Origin: Hyphomicrobiales bacterium | GTDB lineage: Bacteria; Pseudomonadota; Alphaproteobacteria; Rhizobiales; RI-29 | Direction: 5' to 3' | DNA length: 64,000 nt | NCBI GenBank assembly: GCA_016125495.1 | Contig: WGLQ01000007.1 | Location: 124,001 to 188,000 of the forward strand | Shown: positions 47,655-58,707 of the stretch, piece after piece | How the letters are laid out: every line of letters starts with the position of its first letter | Position numbering within the stretch: the first letter of the stretch is position 1 | Program-made: the position numbers and the translations under genes | Notes under the pieces: model-generated | The model's input: only the letters and a program-made list of their open reading frames with translations | What the model was told of the DNA's origin: nothing | Database searches by the model: none

Positions 47655-48830
47655 CTACTGCAGCTTGCAGCCCATCGGTTCGTCACGGACGTTCTCGACG
47701 ACGCCCACCACCTTCTGCGTGAGCCCGCCCTCACCTGCGACGGTCTCGAAGATGTAGATGTTCTGGACGATGTTGTTGGTCGCCGGATCGATCTGGAAGG
47801 GACCACGGGGCCCCTCGAACTTGACCGCCGAGAGGGCACGCGCGAGCGCCTCACTGTCGCCGGGGTTGGTCTTGAGCGCCTCGACGAGCGCACGGCCGGC
47901 GTCGTAGCCCTGCACCGCATACTCCGACGGCACCCGGTTGTACTTGGCCTTGAAGACCTCGACGAACTCCTTGTTCGCCGGCGTATCGATCGTCGGCACG
48001 TAATGGAGCGAGGCGATCACACCCTCGGCCGCCGGCCCTTGCGCGTTGACGTAGAGCGGGGAGGTCAGGAAGCCCGAGCCGTAGAGCTTCATTTTCCCTT
48101 TGACACCGAATTCGGCGTACTGCTTGACGAACGCGATCGCCTCACCGCCCGCATAGAAGACGAAAATGCCATCCGCGCCGGAGTTCATCGCCTTCGTCAG
48201 GTAGGGCCCGAAATCCTTGGTCTGGCGGAACGGGGTCCAGTCACTGCCGACGATCTCGCCGCCGACTTTGGTGAACTCCTTGCTGAACGTTTCGATCATC
48301 TGGTGACCGGCGGCGTAGTCGGCCGCGAGCGTGTAGATCTTACGCACGCCCTGGCTGTAGAGCCAGGAGCCCATCGGCCGGTTGACCTGACCGTTTGAGA
48401 AGGAAACGCGCACGATATAGCGGCTGCAGTTCTCACCCGTGGCGTCGTCGTTGCCGGCATTGGCGACAATCAGCGGCATTTTGGACTGGTCGATGAAGTC
48501 ACGGATCGCCGCCAGCACGCCGGACGAGACGATGCCGACCATCACGTCGACCTTGTCCTCGAGCACCATCTTCTTGGCCTTGGCGAGCCCGACCGGCGGC
48601 TTGACCTCGGTGTCTTCGCGCACGATCTCGAAGGTCGCGCCGGCCTCCGCACCATGCCGCTCGAGCGCGAGCGCGAAGCCCTCGTCGATCTCCTTGCCGA
48701 GCGCGGCAAAGACGCTCGAATAGGGCAGCAGCAGCCCGACCTTGACGCTCTTGGCCTCCGCGGGAACCACGGCCATCGCCGTGGTCGCCACCAGCAGCCC
48801 GGCCGCCAGCGCCTGCAATGACTTCCTCAT
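47655..48830 (-). CDS. Periplasmic binding protein of the aromatic-acid importer (LivK type)
   Basis: A 391-residue solute-binding protein. It has a signal peptide (MRKSLQALAAGLLVATTAMA..AEA). The mature protein starts KSVKVGLLLPYSSVFAALG and has VDVMVGIVSSGVLAAIRDF and ALAADYAAGHQMIETFSKEF. It belongs to the family-5 binding proteins that include aromatic-acid binders. The ATG at 48830 has GGAGG 6 nt upstream. It is the first gene of the leftward unit and divergent from benzoate-CoA ligase. Confidence 0.92.
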   Translation of the reverse strand: MRKSLQALAAGLLVATTAMAVVPAEAKSVKVGLLLPYSSVFAALGKEIDEGFALALERHGAEAGATFEIVREDTEVKPPVGLAKAKKMVLEDKVDVMVGIVSSGVLAAIRDFIDQSKMPLIVANAGNDDATGENCSRYIVRVSFSNGQVNRPMGSWLYSQGVRKIYTLAADYAAGHQMIETFSKEFTKVGGEIVGSDWTPFRQTKDFGPYLTKAMNSGADGIFVFYAGGEAIAFVKQYAEFGVKGKMKLYGSGFLTSPLYVNAQGPAAEGVIASLHYVPTIDTPANKEFVEVFKAKYNRVPSEYAVQGYDAGRALVEALKTNPGDSEALARALSAVKFEGPRGPFQIDPATNNIVQNIYIFETVAGEGGLTQKVVGVVENVRDEPMGCKLQ

Positions 48831-48915
48831 ACGTTTCCTCCCAACTCGTTGATGGTTGGCGCGATCCTGATGGGCCACGTTCGCGCGACGCTAGGACAGC
48901 GCTCGCCGCAAATCA

Positions 48916-48929
48916 AGCATTATAATTCA
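48916..48929. promoter_or_regulatory. Candidate BoxR operator (degenerate copy)
   Basis: AGCATTATAATTCA matches the perfect palindrome at 52268 at 12 of 14 positions. It lies 85 bp upstream of the importer binding-protein start and contains TATAAT, though no matching -35 is seen. Confidence 0.45.
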
Positions 48930-49108
48930 TGATCCATGGTGGGCGCCCCCATCGAACCGACGCACGCTCCGACAGGCAGCACTCCCGGATCGGACCGTCA
49001 ACCACACCCGTCTCGTGACACCCAGCCCCGGCACCGAACCCACCGTGATGACCCTGCCACGGGACGCCAGGATCACCATCGAAGCCTCTTGCTGACCTCG
49101 GAGGATGA

Positions 49109-49122
49109 TGCAATATAGTGCA
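49109..49122. promoter_or_regulatory. Candidate BoxR operator upstream of benzoate-CoA ligase
   Basis: TGCA-ATATAG-TGCA has perfect outer TGCA tetranucleotides. A TTGCTG hexamer 18-19 nt upstream and the central ATATAG could form a promoter, so binding here would block RNA polymerase. It is 126 bp before the ligase start. Confidence 0.55.
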
Positions 49123-49248
49123 TATCAACCTGCCGTCGTCGCGCCCCGGCTCCAGGCCACTCGCCAGCCGCCGCGGCGGCAAGAGCAGGGTTTGCGGGCA
49201 TCGACGGCTGATTGCCGTGCCGTGCCCCGTGTCAGGGAGGACGCCAAG

Positions 49249-50859
49249 TTGAATGACACGAACGGCAATGCGGCACGATATTTCGTCGACCGCCACGTGA
49301 GCGAAGGGCGCGGCGACAGGTCTGCATTCCTCGAAGGCGAGCGCACGCTGAGTTACGGGGACCTCGCCCGCCAGAGCGACCTCATGGTGGGGCTGCTCGC
49401 CCGGCACGGCATTCGTCGCGAGCAGCGGGTCGCCATGCTGGTGCTCGACACCATCGAGTTTCCCGTCATCTTCTGGGGCGCGATCAAGGCCGGGGTCGTG
49501 CCGGTGCCGCTCAACACGCTGCTCTCGCGCGACTATTACGAGTTCATCTTGCAGGACAGCCGCGCCCGCGCGCTCTTCGTTTCCGAGGCCCTGCTGGCGA
49601 CGGTCGCCCCCATCCTCGGCCGCCTCGCCGATCTCGAACAGGTGTTCGTCATCGCCGCCGGCCCCGGCCCCAGCGCACCGGCCCGTCGAAGCTTCTGGGG
49701 GCGCGGCACTCAAGCCACCGCGCGCGCCGACGGCCACCTCGACTTTGCGAGCGAACTCGCCCGTGCCACCCCCGGCACGATGGTCGAGGCGTCCCCCGAC
49801 GACTGCGCCTTCTGGCTCTACTCCTCCGGCTCGACGGGTTGGCCGAAGGGCGTGCGCCACGTTCACGAGAGCCTCGCGGCCACTGCCGACACGTATGGCG
49901 CCCAGGTGCTCGCCATCCGCAAGGACGACACCGTCTATTCGGCAGCCAAGCTGTTCTTTGCCTATGGTCTCGGCAACAGCATGACGTTCCCGATGTCGGT
50001 CGGCGCCACCACGGCGCTGCTGCCCACCCGCCCGACACCCGACAGCGTCTTTGCCACCTTCGCGCGCTATCGGCCGACCATATTCTTCGGCGTACCGACC
50101 CTCTATGCCGCTCTCCTGGCGGCGGCTGGCGGCGCGCGGCCCGCGGGCCTCGAGCGCTTGCGCCTCTGCGCCTCGGCCGGCGAGGCGCTGCCGGAGGACA
50201 TCGGCAAGCGCTGGAAGGCGCTGACCGGAGCCGACATCCTCGACGGTGTCGGTTCGACCGAGATGCTCCACATTTTCCTCTCGAACGCACCCGGCAACGT
50301 CGTCTACGGCACTTCCGGAATTGCGGTCCCCGGCTATGACCTGAGGCTCGTCGACGAGGCGAACGAGGACGTCGCGGACGGTGAGGTCGGCGAATTGCTG
50401 GTCAAGGGTCCTTCGGCATCGGAGGGTTATTGGAATCAGCGCGCCAAGAGCCGCAGCACCTTCGAGGGACACTGGACCCGCACCGGCGACAAATACGAAC
50501 GCCGTGCGGATGGACGCTACGTCTATTGCGGTCGCACCGACGACATGTTCAAGGTCGGGGGCATCTGGGTCTCGCCCTTCGAGGTCGAGCAAGCGCTGAT
50601 CTCCCACCCCAGCGTGCTCGAAGCCGCCGTCATCGCCAGCGAAGACGCCGAGCACCTGTTGAAGCCCAAGGCATTCGTCGTCCTCAAGGCGGGCGAAAGC
50701 TCGCGCGACCTCGCCGAGGAACTGAAGGCACACGTCCAGGCCGCCGTCGGCAAATGGAAATATCCGCGCTGGATCGAATTCGTCTCCGAATTGCCGAAGA
50801 CGGCGACAGGCAAGATCCAACGCTTCAAGCTGCGCGAGCTCGAGGAGCGCCCCAAGTGA
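49249..50859 (+). CDS. bclA: Benzoate-CoA ligase
   Basis: A 536-residue adenylate-forming enzyme converting benzoate, ATP and CoA to benzoyl-CoA, the entry step of the box pathway. Seen: ARYFVDRHVSEGRGDR start, P-loop-like YSSGSTGWPKGVRH, KLFFAYGLGNSMTFPMSVG (benzoate ligase signature), VGSTEMLHIFLSN, and the C-terminal lysine motif PKTATGKIQRFKL. I start at TTG 49249, 8 nt after AGGGAGG; the only upstream ATG (49105) lies on the operator. Its stop overlaps the next gene (GTGA). Confidence 0.93.
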   Translation: MNDTNGNAARYFVDRHVSEGRGDRSAFLEGERTLSYGDLARQSDLMVGLLARHGIRREQRVAMLVLDTIEFPVIFWGAIKAGVVPVPLNTLLSRDYYEFILQDSRARALFVSEALLATVAPILGRLADLEQVFVIAAGPGPSAPARRSFWGRGTQATARADGHLDFASELARATPGTMVEASPDDCAFWLYSSGSTGWPKGVRHVHESLAATADTYGAQVLAIRKDDTVYSAAKLFFAYGLGNSMTFPMSVGATTALLPTRPTPDSVFATFARYRPTIFFGVPTLYAALLAAAGGARPAGLERLRLCASAGEALPEDIGKRWKALTGADILDGVGSTEMLHIFLSNAPGNVVYGTSGIAVPGYDLRLVDEANEDVADGEVGELLVKGPSASEGYWNQRAKSRSTFEGHWTRTGDKYERRADGRYVYCGRTDDMFKVGGIWVSPFEVEQALISHPSVLEAAVIASEDAEHLLKPKAFVVLKAGESSRDLAEELKAHVQAAVGKWKYPRWIEFVSELPKTATGKIQRFKLRELEERPK

Positions 50860-51716
50860 ACGGGCAGGGCGTGAGCTGGCAGAACTGGCGATCGATCGAA
50901 GCGCCGACACTCGACATGGACGGTGCCCGACTCGAATGCAGGGCTTGGGGCCCGCCGCCGCACGAGGCTCCGACCATCGTGCTCCTGCACGAAGGACTCG
51001 GCTCCATGGCGCTCTGGCGGGACTTCCCGAACCGTCTGGCCGAGGCGACCGGGCACGGCGTGTTCGCCTTTTCCCGCTTGGGCTATGGCCGCTCGGACGC
51101 CTGCGCGCTCCCCCGCCCGCTCGATTTCATGACGCACGAGGCGGTCGACGTCCTGCCCCGGGTGCTCGATGCGATCGGCTTTCGGCGCGGCCTCATCGTC
51201 GGGCACAGCGACGGCGCCTCGATCGCCGCCATCCATGCCGGAACCGTTGCCGATCCCCGAGTGACGGGCATCGTTCTAATCGCCCCGCATTTCTTCACCG
51301 AGCCGATGGGCCTCGCCGAGATCGCGAAGGCCCGGCAGGCATTCGACCACGGTGACCTGCGCACCCGCCTCGCCCGCTACCACGACCATGTCGATGCCGC
51401 CTTTCGCGGCTGGAACGACGTCTGGCTTCACCCCGATTTCGCCTCCTGGCAAATCACCGAACCGCTCTCGCGCATCGACCGCCCCGTCCTCGCCATCCAG
51501 GGACGAGGGGACCAGTACGGCACCCTCGCCCAGATCGAGATCGTCCGCGAGCTGGCGCGTGGCCCGGTCGAACTCGCGGTGCTGGAGGATTGCCGCCACG
51601 CCTGCCACATCGAGCAGCCCGAGCGGTTGATGACCTTGGTCGCGGGCTTCGCCGAACGCTTCGCCGGCCAAGGCGCACGCCCGTTGGTGGCAACCCATCG
51701 CGAGTCGAAGCCATGA
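50856..51716 (+). CDS. Alpha/beta hydrolase (second) of the benzoate operon
   Basis: A 286-residue alpha/beta hydrolase with oxyanion region VLLHEGLGSMALWRDFP, nucleophile elbow GHSDGAS, and a histidine segment EDCRHACHIEQPERL. Start is GTG 50856 overlapping the ligase stop, with GAGGAG 8 nt upstream. Hydrolases of this kind recur in box clusters and could open a lactone or clear dead-end thioesters; no direct evidence for the substrate. Confidence 0.87.
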   Translation: MNGQGVSWQNWRSIEAPTLDMDGARLECRAWGPPPHEAPTIVLLHEGLGSMALWRDFPNRLAEATGHGVFAFSRLGYGRSDACALPRPLDFMTHEAVDVLPRVLDAIGFRRGLIVGHSDGASIAAIHAGTVADPRVTGIVLIAPHFFTEPMGLAEIAKARQAFDHGDLRTRLARYHDHVDAAFRGWNDVWLHPDFASWQITEPLSRIDRPVLAIQGRGDQYGTLAQIEIVRELARGPVELAVLEDCRHACHIEQPERLMTLVAGFAERFAGQGARPLVATHRESKP

Positions 51717-52369
51717 CGCGCGCGCGAACCGGTACAGGGCTCGGTGGACCGCTACCCTGGCCGGCCCTCCCCAACACACCGCACCGGCCGGGCTCGACCG
51801 CCCGTCCCGACGCCGACCACCCGGCCAGCCGCATGGCGCGGCGCGTCACGTCGGCCCCGACCGAAGCCGACTGGAGCAGCAACCACCCCTACCTCTACGG
51901 CCACGCCCTGCTGCGCGCCGGCTTCCATTGGGAGGCGCACGAAGTCTGGGAAGCCGTCTGGATGGCGAGCCGGCCGAACAGCCGCGAGCGCGCCCTCGTG
52001 CAGGGCCTCATCCAGGTGGCCAACGCCGCACTCAAATTGTCCATGGGTCGCCTCGGCGCCGGCAAGCGCCTCGCCCTGCTCGCGGCCGACCGCTTTCGCG
52101 ATGCCGACCCGTCCGGATCGAAAGAGCCCCTTCTCGGAGTTCTGGTCGGACCGATCTCCAAGGAACTCGCCTCGCTGGCCGCGCGGATCGCCTCCCAAGG
52201 CTCCGGCACGACCGAAACCGCAGCCGACGCAGGGCAGATTCTCCAGGCGCTCCATGACGAGTTGACTTGCATTATAATGCACAATAGCGCACAAGTTGAC
52301 GCCGCCCTGCACGAGGTAACCGCGCAGATCGCGTTGCCACCCGCACAGCAACTGCATTATAATACCTGA
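51713..52369 (+). CDS. DUF309-domain protein in the benzoate operon
   Basis: A 218-residue protein. A ~55-residue Pro/Arg-rich N-terminus precedes the DUF309 helical core, recognised by FHWEAHEVWEAVWMA and RALVQGLIQVANAALKL. The last ~35 codons, which also encode the operators at 52268 and 52353, are AT-richer than the rest and add a tail not typical of the family. Start ATG 51713 overlaps the previous stop (ATGA). Role in aromatic degradation unknown. Confidence 0.8.
   Translation: MTRARTGTGLGGPLPWPALPNTPHRPGSTARPDADHPASRMARRVTSAPTEADWSSNHPYLYGHALLRAGFHWEAHEVWEAVWMASRPNSRERALVQGLIQVANAALKLSMGRLGAGKRLALLAADRFRDADPSGSKEPLLGVLVGPISKELASLAARIASQGSGTTETAADAGQILQALHDELTCIIMHNSAQVDAALHEVTAQIALPPAQQLHYNT
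52268..52281. promoter_or_regulatory. Candidate BoxR operator, perfect palindrome TGCATTATAATGCA
   Basis: A perfect 14-bp palindrome of TGCA-N6-TGCA form inside the 3' end of the DUF309 gene, 110 bp before boxC. It is 85 bp from a second half-degenerate copy, about eight helical turns, suiting cooperative binding or looping. Confidence 0.6.
52334..52363 (+). promoter_or_regulatory. Candidate boxC promoter
   Basis: TTGCCA and TATAAT are separated by 18 nt; the predicted start site is ~20 nt before the boxC GTG. The -10 is embedded in the degenerate operator at 52353-52366, so repressor binding would occlude it. It lies within the DUF309 coding end. Confidence 0.5.
52353..52366. promoter_or_regulatory. 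Candidate BoxR operator (half-degenerate) at the boxC promoter
   Basis: TGCATTATAATACC matches 12 of 14 positions of the palindrome at 52268, with the left TGCA intact. It covers the -10 of the proposed boxC promoter. Confidence 0.5.
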
Positions 52370-52390: not shown

Positions 52391-54046
52391 GTGACCTTCA
52401 TCGACTTCCAGACCGATCCCTCACGCTACCGCCACTGGCGCATCGAGCTGGATGGCGACGTCGCCCATCTCGTCATGGACGTCGCCGAAGATGGCGGGTT
52501 GCTCGGCGGCTACGAGTTGAAGCTCAATTCGTACGACCTCGGCGTCGACATCGAACTGGCGGACGCGGTGCAGCGCTTGCGCTTCGAGTATCCACAGGTG
52601 CGCTGCGTCGTCATCCGCTCGGGCAAGGAGCGCGTCTTCTGTGCTGGCGCCAACATCCGCATGCTGGCGGCCGCCGACCACGCCCACAAGGTCAACTTCT
52701 GCAAGTTCACCAACGAGACGCGCATCGCGCTCGAGGAGAACGGGTCGGCCTCGGGCCAGACCTACATTGCAGCCATCAGGGGCGCGTGCGCGGGCGGCGG
52801 CTACGAACTCGCCCTCGCGTGTGACCACATCATCCTCGCCGACGACGGCGCCTCGTCCGTGGCACTCCCGGAGGTCCCGCTGCTCGCCGTCCTGCCCGGC
52901 ACGGGCGGCCTCACCCGCGTCACCGACAAGCGCAAGGTGCGCCGTGACCTCGCGGATGTTTTCTGTTCCATCGAGGAGGGCATCAAGGGGCGCCGCGCGG
53001 TGGAATGGCGCCTCGTCGATGAAATCGTCCCGAACTCACGCTTCGAGGAGATCGTCGCCGAACGGGCACGCGAGTTCGCCACCCGCTCGAGCCGCCCGGC
53101 CGGCGCGAAGGGCGTTGCCCTCACCCCGCTCGAGCGCACCATCGGCGCCGATACGATCACCTATTCGAGCGTAGAAGTCGCCATCGATCGGGCGGCCCGC
53201 CGCGCCAGCCTCACGATACATGGCCCCATCGATGCAGCCCCCGCCTCACCCGACGCGCTCGCCGAGGAGGGCGCCGGCAGCTGGATCATCCGCGCCGCGC
53301 GCGAACTCGACGACGCAATCCTGCACTTGCGCCTCAACGAGCTCGAGATCGGCCTCCTCGTCATCCGCACCGTCGGCGATCCGGCCGCCGTCCTCGCTCA
53401 CGAAGCCGTCGTCCTCGGCCATCCCGAGCATTGGTTGGCCAACGAGGTGCGCCACCTCTGGCGGCGGGTCCTGAAGCGCGTCGATCTCACCGCGCGCTCG
53501 ATCGCGACGTTCATCGAGCCGGGCTCCTGCTTTGCGGGCGTGCTCGCCGAACTCACCTTCGCCGCCGACCGCAGCTACATGGCGAGTGGCGAATTCGAGG
53601 GCGACAACCGGCCGGCAGCGACGCTCACACTCTCGCCGGCTAATTTCGGTCCCTTCCCGATGTCGAACGGCCTCTCGCGCCTCGAGACGCGCTTCCTCGG
53701 CGAGCCCGAGCGCATCGAGGCCGCGCGAAAGGCGATGGGCGATACCCTCGATGGCGATGCGGCCCGCGAGGCCGGCCTCGTCACCTTCGCCTTCGACGAC
53801 ATCGACTGGGCCGACGAGACGCGCATTTTCCTCGAGGAACGCGCCAGCTTTTCCCCCGACGCCATGACGGCGATGGAGGCGAATTTGCGCTTTGCCGGCC
53901 CCGAGACCATGGAAACGCGAATCTTCGGCCGCCTCACCGCCTGGCAGAACTGGGTCTTCCAGCGCCCCAACGCCGTCGGAGAGAAGGGCGCACTGAAGCG
54001 CTACGGAACGGGCGTTCGCGGCGAATACGACATGCGCCGGGTCTGA
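52391..54046 (+). CDS. boxC: Benzoyl-CoA-dihydrodiol lyase BoxC
   Basis: A 551-residue crotonase-superfamily enzyme that cleaves the ring of 2,3-epoxybenzoyl-CoA hydrolytically, releasing formate and giving 3,4-dehydroadipyl-CoA semialdehyde. Family segments: IRSGKERVFCAGANIRMLA, RGACAGGGYELALACDHI, VPLLAVLPGTGGLTRVTDKRKV and the C-terminal GLSRLETRFLGEPE. Length matches BoxC (about 550). GTG start at 52391 with GGGAGAG upstream. First gene after the internal promoter; followed by the cupin pseudogene and boxB. Confidence 0.95.
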   Translation: MTFIDFQTDPSRYRHWRIELDGDVAHLVMDVAEDGGLLGGYELKLNSYDLGVDIELADAVQRLRFEYPQVRCVVIRSGKERVFCAGANIRMLAAADHAHKVNFCKFTNETRIALEENGSASGQTYIAAIRGACAGGGYELALACDHIILADDGASSVALPEVPLLAVLPGTGGLTRVTDKRKVRRDLADVFCSIEEGIKGRRAVEWRLVDEIVPNSRFEEIVAERAREFATRSSRPAGAKGVALTPLERTIGADTITYSSVEVAIDRAARRASLTIHGPIDAAPASPDALAEEGAGSWIIRAARELDDAILHLRLNELEIGLLVIRTVGDPAAVLAHEAVVLGHPEHWLANEVRHLWRRVLKRVDLTARSIATFIEPGSCFAGVLAELTFAADRSYMASGEFEGDNRPAATLTLSPANFGPFPMSNGLSRLETRFLGEPERIEAARKAMGDTLDGDAAREAGLVTFAFDDIDWADETRIFLEERASFSPDAMTAMEANLRFAGPETMETRIFGRLTAWQNWVFQRPNAVGEKGALKRYGTGVRGEYDMRRV

Positions 54047-54478: not shown

Positions 54479-55930
54479 ATGCATGACCTCATCAACGTCA
54501 GTTACGACACGCTGATCCCGAACAACGTCAGCCTCTCGAGCGACCGGCGGGTTCTGAAAGCGCTGGAGAAGTGGCACCCCGGTTACATCAACTGGTGGAA
54601 CGACATGGGCCCCGAAGGCTTCCAGGAGAGCCTCGTCTATTTGCGCACGGCCGTCAGTGTCGACCCCAAGGGCTGGGCGAAGTTCGATTATGTCCGCATG
54701 CCCGAGTACCGCTGGGGCGTGCTGCTGGCACCGCAGGTCGAGGACCGGCGCGTGCCTTGCGGCGAGCACCTCGGCGAGCCCGCCTGGCAGGAGGTGCCGG
54801 GAGAATATCGCGCCATGCTGCGCCGGCTCATCGTCATCCAGGGCGACACCGAGCCCGCCTCCGTCGAGCAGCAGCGCCATCTCGGCAAGACCGCTCCCTC
54901 CCTCTACGACATGCGCAATCTCTTCCAGGTGAACGTCGAGGAGGGCCGTCACCTCTGGGCCATGGTTTACCTCCTCCACAAGTACTTCGGTGCCGACGGA
55001 CGCGAAGAGGCCGATGAGTTGCTGCGCCGCCAGTCCGGCTCGGCCGAAGCGCCCCGCATGCTCGGGGCCTTCAACGAGGAGACGCCCGATTGGCTCTCCT
55101 TCTTCATGTTCACCTATTTCACCGACCGCGACGGCAAGATGCAGCTCGAGGCCCTCGCCCAGTCGGGTTTCGATCCCCTCTCGCGCACCTGCCGCTTCAT
55201 GCTGACCGAGGAGGCGCATCACATGTTCGTCGGAGAGACGGGCGTCGGGCGCACCATCCAGCGGACCTGCGAGGCGATGAATGAGGCCGGCATCGAGGAC
55301 CCCTACGACATCGCGGCCGTTCGCGCTCTCGGCGTCATCGACCTGCCCACCATCCAGAAAAAGGCGAACCTGCACTATACTCTTTCCCTCGACCTCTTCG
55401 GCTCGGAGGTCTCGACGAATGCGGCAAACGCCTTCAACGCCGGCATCAAGGGCCGCTACCAGGAGGCGCGTCTCGACGACGATCATCGGCTCTCCGGTGC
55501 GACCTATCCCGTGCGCCTCTTGAAGGATGGCGCGATCATCGCCGAGGACATGCCCGCGCTCTCGGCGATCAATATGCGGCTGCGCGACGACTACAGCCGC
55601 GATGCCGGCGGCGGCGTCAAGCGCTGGAACCAGATCATCGAAAAGTCCGGCATCGCCTTCGAGCTCAAATTGCCGCACGAGGGCTTTCACCGGCAGATCG
55701 GCGCCTTTACGCGCGCGCCGATCACCCCCGAGGGTACGGTTCTCGGAACCGAGGAGTGGAATGCGCGGCGCGACGAGTGGCTTCCCTCCAAGGCCGACGG
55801 CGACTTCATCCAGTCGCTCATGAAGCCGCAATGGGAGCCCGGCAAGTATGCCGGTTGGATCGCCCCACCCCGCGTCGGCATCGACAACAAGCCCGGCGAT
55901 TTCGAGTACGTGAAGCTCCACATGGCCTGA
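54479..55930 (+). CDS. boxB: Benzoyl-CoA 2,3-epoxidase BoxB
   Basis: A 483-residue class I di-iron oxygenase that inserts one O atom of O2 into benzoyl-CoA. Residues Glu125, Glu155, His158 (VEEGRHL), Asp216, Glu245 and His248 (TEEAHH) occur with the spacing of the BoxB di-iron ligands. The family N-terminus INVSYDTLIPNNVSL is intact. The ATG at 54479 has AGAGG upstream; a GTG at 54443 is unlikely. It receives electrons from BoxA, whose gene follows 92 bp later. Confidence 0.96.
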   Translation: MHDLINVSYDTLIPNNVSLSSDRRVLKALEKWHPGYINWWNDMGPEGFQESLVYLRTAVSVDPKGWAKFDYVRMPEYRWGVLLAPQVEDRRVPCGEHLGEPAWQEVPGEYRAMLRRLIVIQGDTEPASVEQQRHLGKTAPSLYDMRNLFQVNVEEGRHLWAMVYLLHKYFGADGREEADELLRRQSGSAEAPRMLGAFNEETPDWLSFFMFTYFTDRDGKMQLEALAQSGFDPLSRTCRFMLTEEAHHMFVGETGVGRTIQRTCEAMNEAGIEDPYDIAAVRALGVIDLPTIQKKANLHYTLSLDLFGSEVSTNAANAFNAGIKGRYQEARLDDDHRLSGATYPVRLLKDGAIIAEDMPALSAINMRLRDDYSRDAGGGVKRWNQIIEKSGIAFELKLPHEGFHRQIGAFTRAPITPEGTVLGTEEWNARRDEWLPSKADGDFIQSLMKPQWEPGKYAGWIAPPRVGIDNKPGDFEYVKLHMA

Positions 55931-56022: not shown

Positions 56023-57231
56023 ATGACGACGCACAGCCCCATCAAACAGCACCTGATCGACCCCGAGATTTGCATCCGCTGCCACACCTGTGAGGAGGCG
56101 TGCCCGGTTGGCGCCATCACGCACGACGACCAGAACGTCGTCGTCGACGCCACCAAGTGCGAGTACTGCATGGCGTGCATCGCGCCGTGCCCGACCGGAT
56201 CGATCGACAACTGGCGCGTCGTCCTCTCCCCCTATTCGCTCGAAGAGCAGCTCTCGTGGAGCGAGTTGCCGGCCCAGGAAACGCTCGCCGCCCCCGATGG
56301 CAGCGGCGACGCTCCGGGCACGATCGAAGCGCTCGAAGGGGAAATCGAGCGGCTCCTCTCCGAAGCTCACGCCGGCGCGGGCGGGCCGGCACGCGCCCCT
56401 GCGTCCGCCTCCAAGGCCACGGTCAACCTTTACAGCCGCACCCACCCCGCCATAGCCGTCGTCCAGGGAAATTATCGCCTCACCGGTGAGGCCGCCGACA
56501 GTGACGTCCGCCACATCATTCTCGACCTCGGCCAGCAGGTCTTTCCCGTCCTCGAGGGCCAGAGCGTCGGCGTGCTCGCGCCGGGTCTCGATGGCAATGG
56601 CGAGCCGCATCGCATCCGCCTCTATTCCGTCTCGAGCCCACGCGACGGCGAACGGCCGAACACCAACAATCTCTCCCTGACGGTGAAGCGCGAGCCGGGC
56701 GGGGTCTGCTCGAACTTCCTCTGCGACCTCGCCAAGGGCGACGAGGTCCGCCTGACAGGGCCATTTGGCGCAACCTTCCTGATGCCAGACGACCCAGCCG
56801 CCCGCCTCGTCATGATCTGTACCGGGACTGGTTCGGCCCCGATGCGCGCCTTCACCATGCGCCACCGCCGCACGCAGCCGGACGCGCGCGGTCGCCTCCA
56901 TCTCTACTTCGGCGCCCGCACCCCCGAGAGCCTGCCCTATTTCGGTCCCCTCAACAAGATTCCCGCCGACGTCATGGATCGCCACCTGGTTTTCTCGCGC
57001 GTTCCGGGGCATGAGAAGGAATACGTCCAGGATCGCATCGCGCGTGAGGCCGGACGGCTCGGCCCGCTGCTTGCCGATCCCGGAACGCACATCTACATCT
57101 GCGGCCTCAAGGCCATGGAGGCGGGCGTCGACGCCGCCCTCTCGGGCGTTGCCCAGGCCGCCGGCCGGGACTGGGGCGATCTCAAAGCCGCGATGCGCCG
57201 TCAGGGCCGCTACCATGTGGAGACCTATTGA
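56023..57231 (+). CDS. boxA: Benzoyl-CoA epoxidase reductase BoxA
   Basis: A 402-residue NADPH-dependent iron-sulfur flavoprotein feeding electrons to BoxB. Two [4Fe-4S] motifs are at residues 17-28 (CIRCHTCEEACP) and ~46-57 (CEYCMACIAPCP). A FAD domain follows (HRIRLYSVSSPRDG, GVCSNFLCDL), then an NADP domain (CTGTGSAPMRAF, YICGLKAMEAGV). Length matches BoxA. Its stop overlaps the thioesterase start (TGATG). Confidence 0.95.
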   Translation: MTTHSPIKQHLIDPEICIRCHTCEEACPVGAITHDDQNVVVDATKCEYCMACIAPCPTGSIDNWRVVLSPYSLEEQLSWSELPAQETLAAPDGSGDAPGTIEALEGEIERLLSEAHAGAGGPARAPASASKATVNLYSRTHPAIAVVQGNYRLTGEAADSDVRHIILDLGQQVFPVLEGQSVGVLAPGLDGNGEPHRIRLYSVSSPRDGERPNTNNLSLTVKREPGGVCSNFLCDLAKGDEVRLTGPFGATFLMPDDPAARLVMICTGTGSAPMRAFTMRHRRTQPDARGRLHLYFGARTPESLPYFGPLNKIPADVMDRHLVFSRVPGHEKEYVQDRIAREAGRLGPLLADPGTHIYICGLKAMEAGVDAALSGVAQAAGRDWGDLKAAMRRQGRYHVETY

Positions 57232-57768: not shown

Positions 57769-58707
57769 ATGGGCAGGCCAAGGGCAAACGTCTTGAACCT
57801 CCATGGCGTCGCACGGGACGAGACCGGCGAGGATGGCGGGGCGGACGACGGCGTCGGCGCCTTCCTCACCGCGGTCGGCGAGCGCGTCCATGCGTGCCGG
57901 ACGCGAAAGGGCCTTTCCCGGCGCACGCTCTCCCAGAAGTCGGCCGTCTCCGAGCGCTACCTCGCCCAACTCGAGGCAGGCGCCGGTAACATCTCGATTT
58001 CCCTCCTGAGGCGCATCTCACTGGCACTCGACGTGCCGATCGAGTGGCTGCTCGCCGAGGAGGATCCCTGGCTCTCGGACACCCACGCCATCCTCGCCCT
58101 CTACCGTCATGCGAGCCCCGCCCAGAGGCGCAAGGTCCAGCAGATTCTCGATCCGGCCCTCGCCGGTGATCCCCGGGCCCGCCGCATCGCCTTCATCGGC
58201 TTGAGGGGAGCGGGAAAATCGACGATCGGACAGCTCTGTGCCGCCCGCCTCGATGCACCGTTTCACGAACTCAACGCCGAGATCGAACTGGTCGGCGGCA
58301 TGCCGGTTCAGGAGATTTTCGCCCTCTACGGACAGGAGGGCTACCGGCGCCTCGAGCGCCAGGCGATCGAGCAGATCGCGGCGACCCACGACCGCGTCGT
58401 CCTGGCGGTTGCGGGAGGCATCGTCTCCGAGCCCGAAACCTTCGATTTCCTCTTGAAGAATTTCCATGCCATCTGGCTGCGCGCCGCCCCGACCGACCAT
58501 CTCGAGCGGGTCCGCGGCCAGGGCGACGAGCGCCCGATGGCCGAGAGCGCGGCTCCCCTCGCCGAACTCCAGGACATCCTGCGCAGCCGCGAGGCGCTCT
58601 ATGCGCGCGCGCGCGCCGTCGTCGAGACCAGCGGCCGCACCGTCGAGCGGACCCTGGCGGACACCCTCGACGTGATCTCGGCGCTCGGCATCTCCGGACC
58701 GCGTTGA
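57769..58707 (+). CDS. boxR: Transcriptional regulator BoxR (HTH + shikimate-kinase-like domain)
   Basis: A 312-residue regulator. An XRE-type HTH (RVHACRTRKGLSRRTLSQKS, YLAQLEAGAGNISISLLRRI) occupies residues ~35-95, and a shikimate-kinase-like domain with P-loop GLRGAGKSTIG begins near residue 144. This fusion is the signature of BzdR/BoxR, repressors that use benzoyl-CoA as inducer. Last gene of the box operon; the TGCA-N6-TGCA sites in this island are its likely operators. Confidence 0.93.
   Translation: MGRPRANVLNLHGVARDETGEDGGADDGVGAFLTAVGERVHACRTRKGLSRRTLSQKSAVSERYLAQLEAGAGNISISLLRRISLALDVPIEWLLAEEDPWLSDTHAILALYRHASPAQRRKVQQILDPALAGDPRARRIAFIGLRGAGKSTIGQLCAARLDAPFHELNAEIELVGGMPVQEIFALYGQEGYRRLERQAIEQIAATHDRVVLAVAGGIVSEPETFDFLLKNFHAIWLRAAPTDHLERVRGQGDERPMAESAAPLAELQDILRSREALYARARAVVETSGRTVERTLADTLDVISALGISGPR

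Follow-up and report, generated by a model that had tools for sequence, protein, structure and literature searches.

Which protein reads the TGCA-containing palindromes in the control regions of this benzoate degradation cluster, and does it tie uptake, activation and ring cleavage to one signal? The cluster lies within a window of 64 kb, the whole stretch of DNA that was analysed, and runs in the order ABC importer (minus strand), benzoate-CoA ligase, alpha/beta hydrolase, DUF309 protein, boxC, boxB, boxA, a short ORF and boxR (Table 1). The preliminary description of this DNA had already placed boxR at the end of the cluster, which was borne out. boxR is thus encoded together with box genes, boxC, boxB, boxA and the ligase gene being assigned by NCBIfam equivalog or subfamily models. 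Its product combines an N-terminal XRE-type HTH with a C-terminal shikimate-kinase-like domain, as in the BoxR/BzdR family, and scores 367.5 bits against NF006015 (anaerobic benzoate catabolism regulator), for which the cut-off is 204. Judged from the sequence, the palindromes are almost certainly binding sites of this BoxR. The full explanation, in which BoxR represses through the palindromes, with looping at boxC and release by benzoyl-CoA, is given a probability of about 0.92.

Table 1 Features of the box cluster and its control regions (positions in the window; bits of operators refer to the matrix trained on relatives)
Feature	Position	Strand	Evidence or score	Remark
Substrate-binding protein of ABC importer	47655..48878	-	PF13458	ORF as listed; likely start ATG 48830
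Putative operator AGCATTATAATTCA	48916..48929		28.3 bits	Importer/ligase divergent region
Predicted ligase promoter, CTGACC-N16-TATAGT	49092..49119	+	9/12	Shuffles mean 0.1
Putative operator TGCAATATAGTGCA	49109..49122		31.5 bits	Best of window; on -10 box of predicted ligase promoter
Benzoate-CoA ligase (bclA)	49249..50859	+	TIGR02262, 751 bits	Likely start TTG at 49249
DUF309 gene	51713..52369	+	PF03745	ORF extent; 3' end holds boxC operators
Putative distal auxiliary operator of boxC, TGCATTATAATGCA	52268..52281		29.2 bits	Perfect palindrome
Fifth putative operator, TGCACAATAGCGCA	52278..52291		20.8 bits	Overlaps 52268
Predicted sigma-70 promoter of boxC, TTGCCA-N18-TATAAT	52334..52363	+	11/12 tool score	Shuffles mean 0.0
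Putative proximal operator of boxC, TGCATTATAATACC	52353..52366		17.3 bits	Right half degenerate; on -10 box
boxC	52391..54046	+	TIGR03222, 923 bits	
boxB	54479..55930	+	TIGR03225, 896 bits	
boxA	56023..57231	+	TIGR03224, 547 bits	
boxR	57769..58707	+	PF01381, PF01202; NF006015	HTH_3 and shikimate-kinase-like domain

The sites, their rarity, their conservation, their overlap with promoters and their phasing were all computed. A search of the window for the 14-mer TGCATTATAATGCA with up to three mismatches returned exactly four places, 48916, 49109, 52268 and 52353, the same four that had been described before, while 0.30 ± 0.54 places were expected from shuffled windows and none of 100 shuffles reached four. 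The copy at 52268 has no mismatch and the three others have two each, in agreement with the earlier statement of one perfect and several near copies. The TGCA-N6-TGCA palindrome is perfect in 52268 and imperfect in 52353 and 48916; the part of the statement that did not hold is that 52353 is a palindrome, since its right half is degenerate (TACC), which leaves a half-palindrome whose conserved portion is the TATAAT -10 box. The list of four also proved incomplete. The fifth site, at 52278, shares one TGCA half-site with 52268, so that together they form three half-sites in a row, 10 bp apart, and it was also recovered in the genome-wide search. The likely start of the substrate-binding protein gene lies about 86 bp downstream of the putative operator at 48916.

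In the organism's own genome (4,054,688 bp) the 14-mer was found at 14 places with up to three mismatches and at six with up to two, four of the six being the sites discussed here. There are few copies beyond the cluster, and the objection that the motif might recur at random all over the genome therefore does not apply. The degenerate core TGCANTATANTGCA has its only exact places in the genome at 49109 and 52268 and no place at one mismatch. The BoxR/BzdR consensus of Betaproteobacteria is ATGCACTATAGTGCAT (Suvorova and Gelfand 2019, PMC6449761). Its best match in the whole genome is 49108-49123, with 1 mismatch in 16; the site at 49109 in its extended form, ATGCAATATAGTGCAT, thus agrees with the published consensus in 15 of 16 positions, which supports the earlier reading of the sites as TGCA-containing operators of the BzdR/BoxR type. 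With up to three mismatches the consensus occurs at three places in the genome, two of them in the box cluster, and the reversed control at none.

Conservation was assessed with a palindromic matrix trained only on box clusters of relatives, with the window left out. The clusters came from genomes of the same order and from Thalassobaculum fulvum, the one true BoxR relative found in a search of genome contigs with the single BoxR, and the sites were taken upstream of boxC, bclA, the binding-protein gene and boxR wherever BoxR was at least 47 % identical. The sites recur in these relatives upstream of boxC, of the binding-protein and bclA genes and of boxR, with 15 matches (up to two mismatches) in 506 kb outside such upstream regions. 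In the window, 49109, 52268, 48916, 52278 and 52353 take ranks 1-5, the sixth position reaching only 6.7 bits. Chance AT islands as an explanation draw on nothing beyond the short length of the motif and are refuted statistically by the shuffles, the genome scan, the matrix ranking and the consensus search, so that practically no weight is given to them. Outside the window the matrix was scored only at genome places that passed the consensus filters, plus flanks. One unlinked site, TGCATTTTAGTTCA (L009:1501; G000:C7:476488-476501; 20.4 bits), which counts against the model, coincides with the beginning of a gene for a LysR-type regulator, divergent from a pirin-like gene; the site may be a chance occurrence or an extra member of the regulon.

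Exactly one sigma-70-like promoter was predicted in each region; 52353 overlaps the one for boxC and 49109 the one for the ligase gene. The importer side of the divergent region gave no promoter match, nor did 52268 and 48916 give a sigma-70-like one; 52268 is read as an auxiliary operator. Of 69 loci with a boxC-proximal site, 31 have a TTG 17-19 nt before the 14-mer, where 4.9 would be expected. The proximal site therefore generally coincides with the -10 box, where a repressor would be expected to bind. The same overlap could be turned around: the motifs might be no more than the AT-rich -10 boxes that strong promoters have in a GC-rich sequence, with the palindrome incidental, as TATAAT or TATAGT stands inside each of the four and two of them coincide with the only predicted promoters. 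For 52353, with its degenerate palindrome, a role mainly as a -10 box could be correct. As a general account this is highly improbable, because the outer TGCA half-sites are substantially informative beside the core in the relatives' matrix, because 52268 and 48916 have counterparts in relatives yet no promoter match, because the published BoxR consensus matches, and because the spacing of paired sites is phased.

Phasing was examined in about 80 BoxR loci of the same order and class. The spacings of the pairs cluster at whole helical turns (R = 0.60 at 10.5 bp, n = 60 unique combinations of genus, region and spacing), with a Rayleigh p of ~6e-10 that is optimistic owing to shared ancestry, which is partly ignored, and to sequence composition. 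When each genus and region contributed a single spacing, R rose to 0.73 (n = 46). Thirty column-permuted matrices, an imperfect control with few pairs, mostly gave R below 0.48 and once 0.593, compared with 0.606 for the real matrix. Two species of one genus (L051 and L052) have spacings of 116 and 126, a single 10-bp step. In the window, 52268 and 52353 are 85 bp or 8.1 turns apart, so that together with the phasing in relatives the whole-turn spacing of multiple sites that marks BoxR/BzdR operators is found here, while 48916 and 49109 are out of phase (193 bp, 18.4 turns). The distal site outscores the proximal one in 16 of the 19 loci with a BoxR at least 50 % identical (Wilcoxon p = 0.00027).

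The preliminary description was right to place two sites before boxC. These are not intergenic: both lie inside the 3' end of the DUF309 frame, which runs through 52268 and 52353 and ends with TGA at 52369. The last base of the DUF309 stop falls precisely on base 10 of the distal 14-mer in six relatives (L058, L059, L062, L123, L125 and L130). The stop there is the TAA inside the palindrome and the operator thus doubles as stop codon, whereas in the window the distal palindrome is read through by DUF309 in another frame. It is somewhat favoured that a common layout exists, with a weak operator at the -10 box of boxC and a stronger one whole turns upstream, often at the end of DUF309, and with the joint change in the sister clade described below. 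The weak/strong phased layout of alphaproteobacterial BoxR regulons is apparently unreported.

The sites might instead be operators of another regulator, such as a second XRE-type, an FNR-type or a LysR-type protein, with BoxR a bystander; indeed CopG, XylS and BenR also bind TGCA-containing palindromes (PMC6678401). This is judged slightly less probable still than the -10 box account, given that in many families the sites accompany those box clusters that have BoxR and that the shape of the operator changes in a sister clade of BoxR. FNR-type sites were rejected, as the FNR-like TTGATNNNNATCAA has no match in either of the two site regions. The sister clade comprises 13 loci of the same order, with BoxR identities of 34-39 %, that form one clade in the tree (100/100) and have boxR divergent from boxC; their boxR-boxC intergenic regions were searched (L035, L063-L066, L070, L071, L073, L074, L076 and L078-L080). 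In 11 of the 13 regions a search with a relaxed core detected a pair of core palindromes spaced by 40 or 41 bp, compared with a mean of 0.155 and a maximum of 2 in the shuffled control. The half-sites drift from TGCA towards GGAA/GGCA, the outermost base being G in 24 of 42 half-sites while in the main clade it is T in 84 %; enumeration of exact 4-mer palindromes in the sister clade gave no single dominant half-site. The neighbours of the recognition helix also differ between the clades (YLAQLExGxGN versus YLGxxExGxAN). This post hoc observation suggests that regulator and operator changed together. As a natural control, G024 (L075), the one genome with a box cluster that gave no full-length match to BoxR, has no site upstream of boxC either, a single case in a genome rated 93 % complete. 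In two others (G147 and G056) boxR is found elsewhere in the genome and not near boxC, and the sites are kept.

In the preferred reading we infer BoxR as the bound protein, looping of the DNA and benzoyl-CoA as inducer. When benzoyl-CoA is absent, BoxR dimers would occupy the TGCA-N6-TGCA palindromes. The operators at the promoters of the ligase gene and of boxC would cover the -10 box and thereby block RNA polymerase. At boxC the stronger tandem operator 52268/52278, 85 bp upstream and nearly on the same face of the helix, would stabilise the weak promoter operator, probably by protein-protein contact and a DNA loop, by analogy with the BzdR system (PMC6678401). Benzoyl-CoA, once produced by the ligase, would attach to the kinase-like domain and free BoxR from the DNA; it is proposed that uptake, activation and ring cleavage therefore switch on together. 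The idea of one repressor for the importer/ligase region and boxC, put forward earlier, is supported by the BoxR family assignment, the consensus, the matrix, the promoter overlap and the conservation. Its gap is the operator before boxR, which is present in many relatives immediately before the gene and absent here: none of the top 25 matrix positions of the window is near 57769. Such a site is not a defining feature of the regulon. BoxR is probably expressed together with the boxC run here, and its level may therefore rise on induction and not be set by an operator of its own.

The hydrolase and DUF309 genes abut in the window (51700-51720), and no relative of boxD was found in the own genome at E<=1e-40, although a divergent copy may exist. 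In some relatives an aldehyde-dehydrogenase-like gene, probably boxD, lies between these two genes (seen as an ORF in L054, with gaps of a similar kind in others).

The switch is of a known kind and not a new system; what is new is the alphaproteobacterial lineage that carries it and some detail of its architecture. A benzoyl-CoA-responsive regulon that comparative genomics had described in Betaproteobacteria is thereby extended to box clusters of Alphaproteobacteria, and a testable rule is gained, the phased pair of a weak and a strong operator. The BoxR proteins and their operators form a natural series for how an enzyme-derived repressor reads DNA. For the organism itself, the results support the view that uptake of benzoate, its activation and the cleavage of its ring are controlled in a coordinated way.

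The betaproteobacterial BoxR/BzdR regulons (PMC6449761) resemble the window in regulator family, the 6-nt spacing of TGCA, multiple sites and the target genes boxCBA, ligase and ABC transporter. They differ in that the window cluster is alphaproteobacterial and lacks boxD, its perfect copy has the centre TTATAA and not CTATAG, its boxR closes the boxC run and does not stand beside a divergent promoter, and in its BoxR clade most boxC pairs are separated by 5-12 turns and not mainly by 3-5. At the PN promoter of Azoarcus sp. CIB, the upstream operators are needed for release of BzdR by benzoyl-CoA, and a loop forms around several dimers (PMC6678401). The window shares with that promoter an operator on the promoter and upstream TGCA-N6-TGCA auxiliary operators. 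However, it is without a long OR1 having the TGCA-N15-TGCA element, it holds aerobic box genes and not anaerobic bzd genes, and its sites are predicted from DNA, unlike those at PN.
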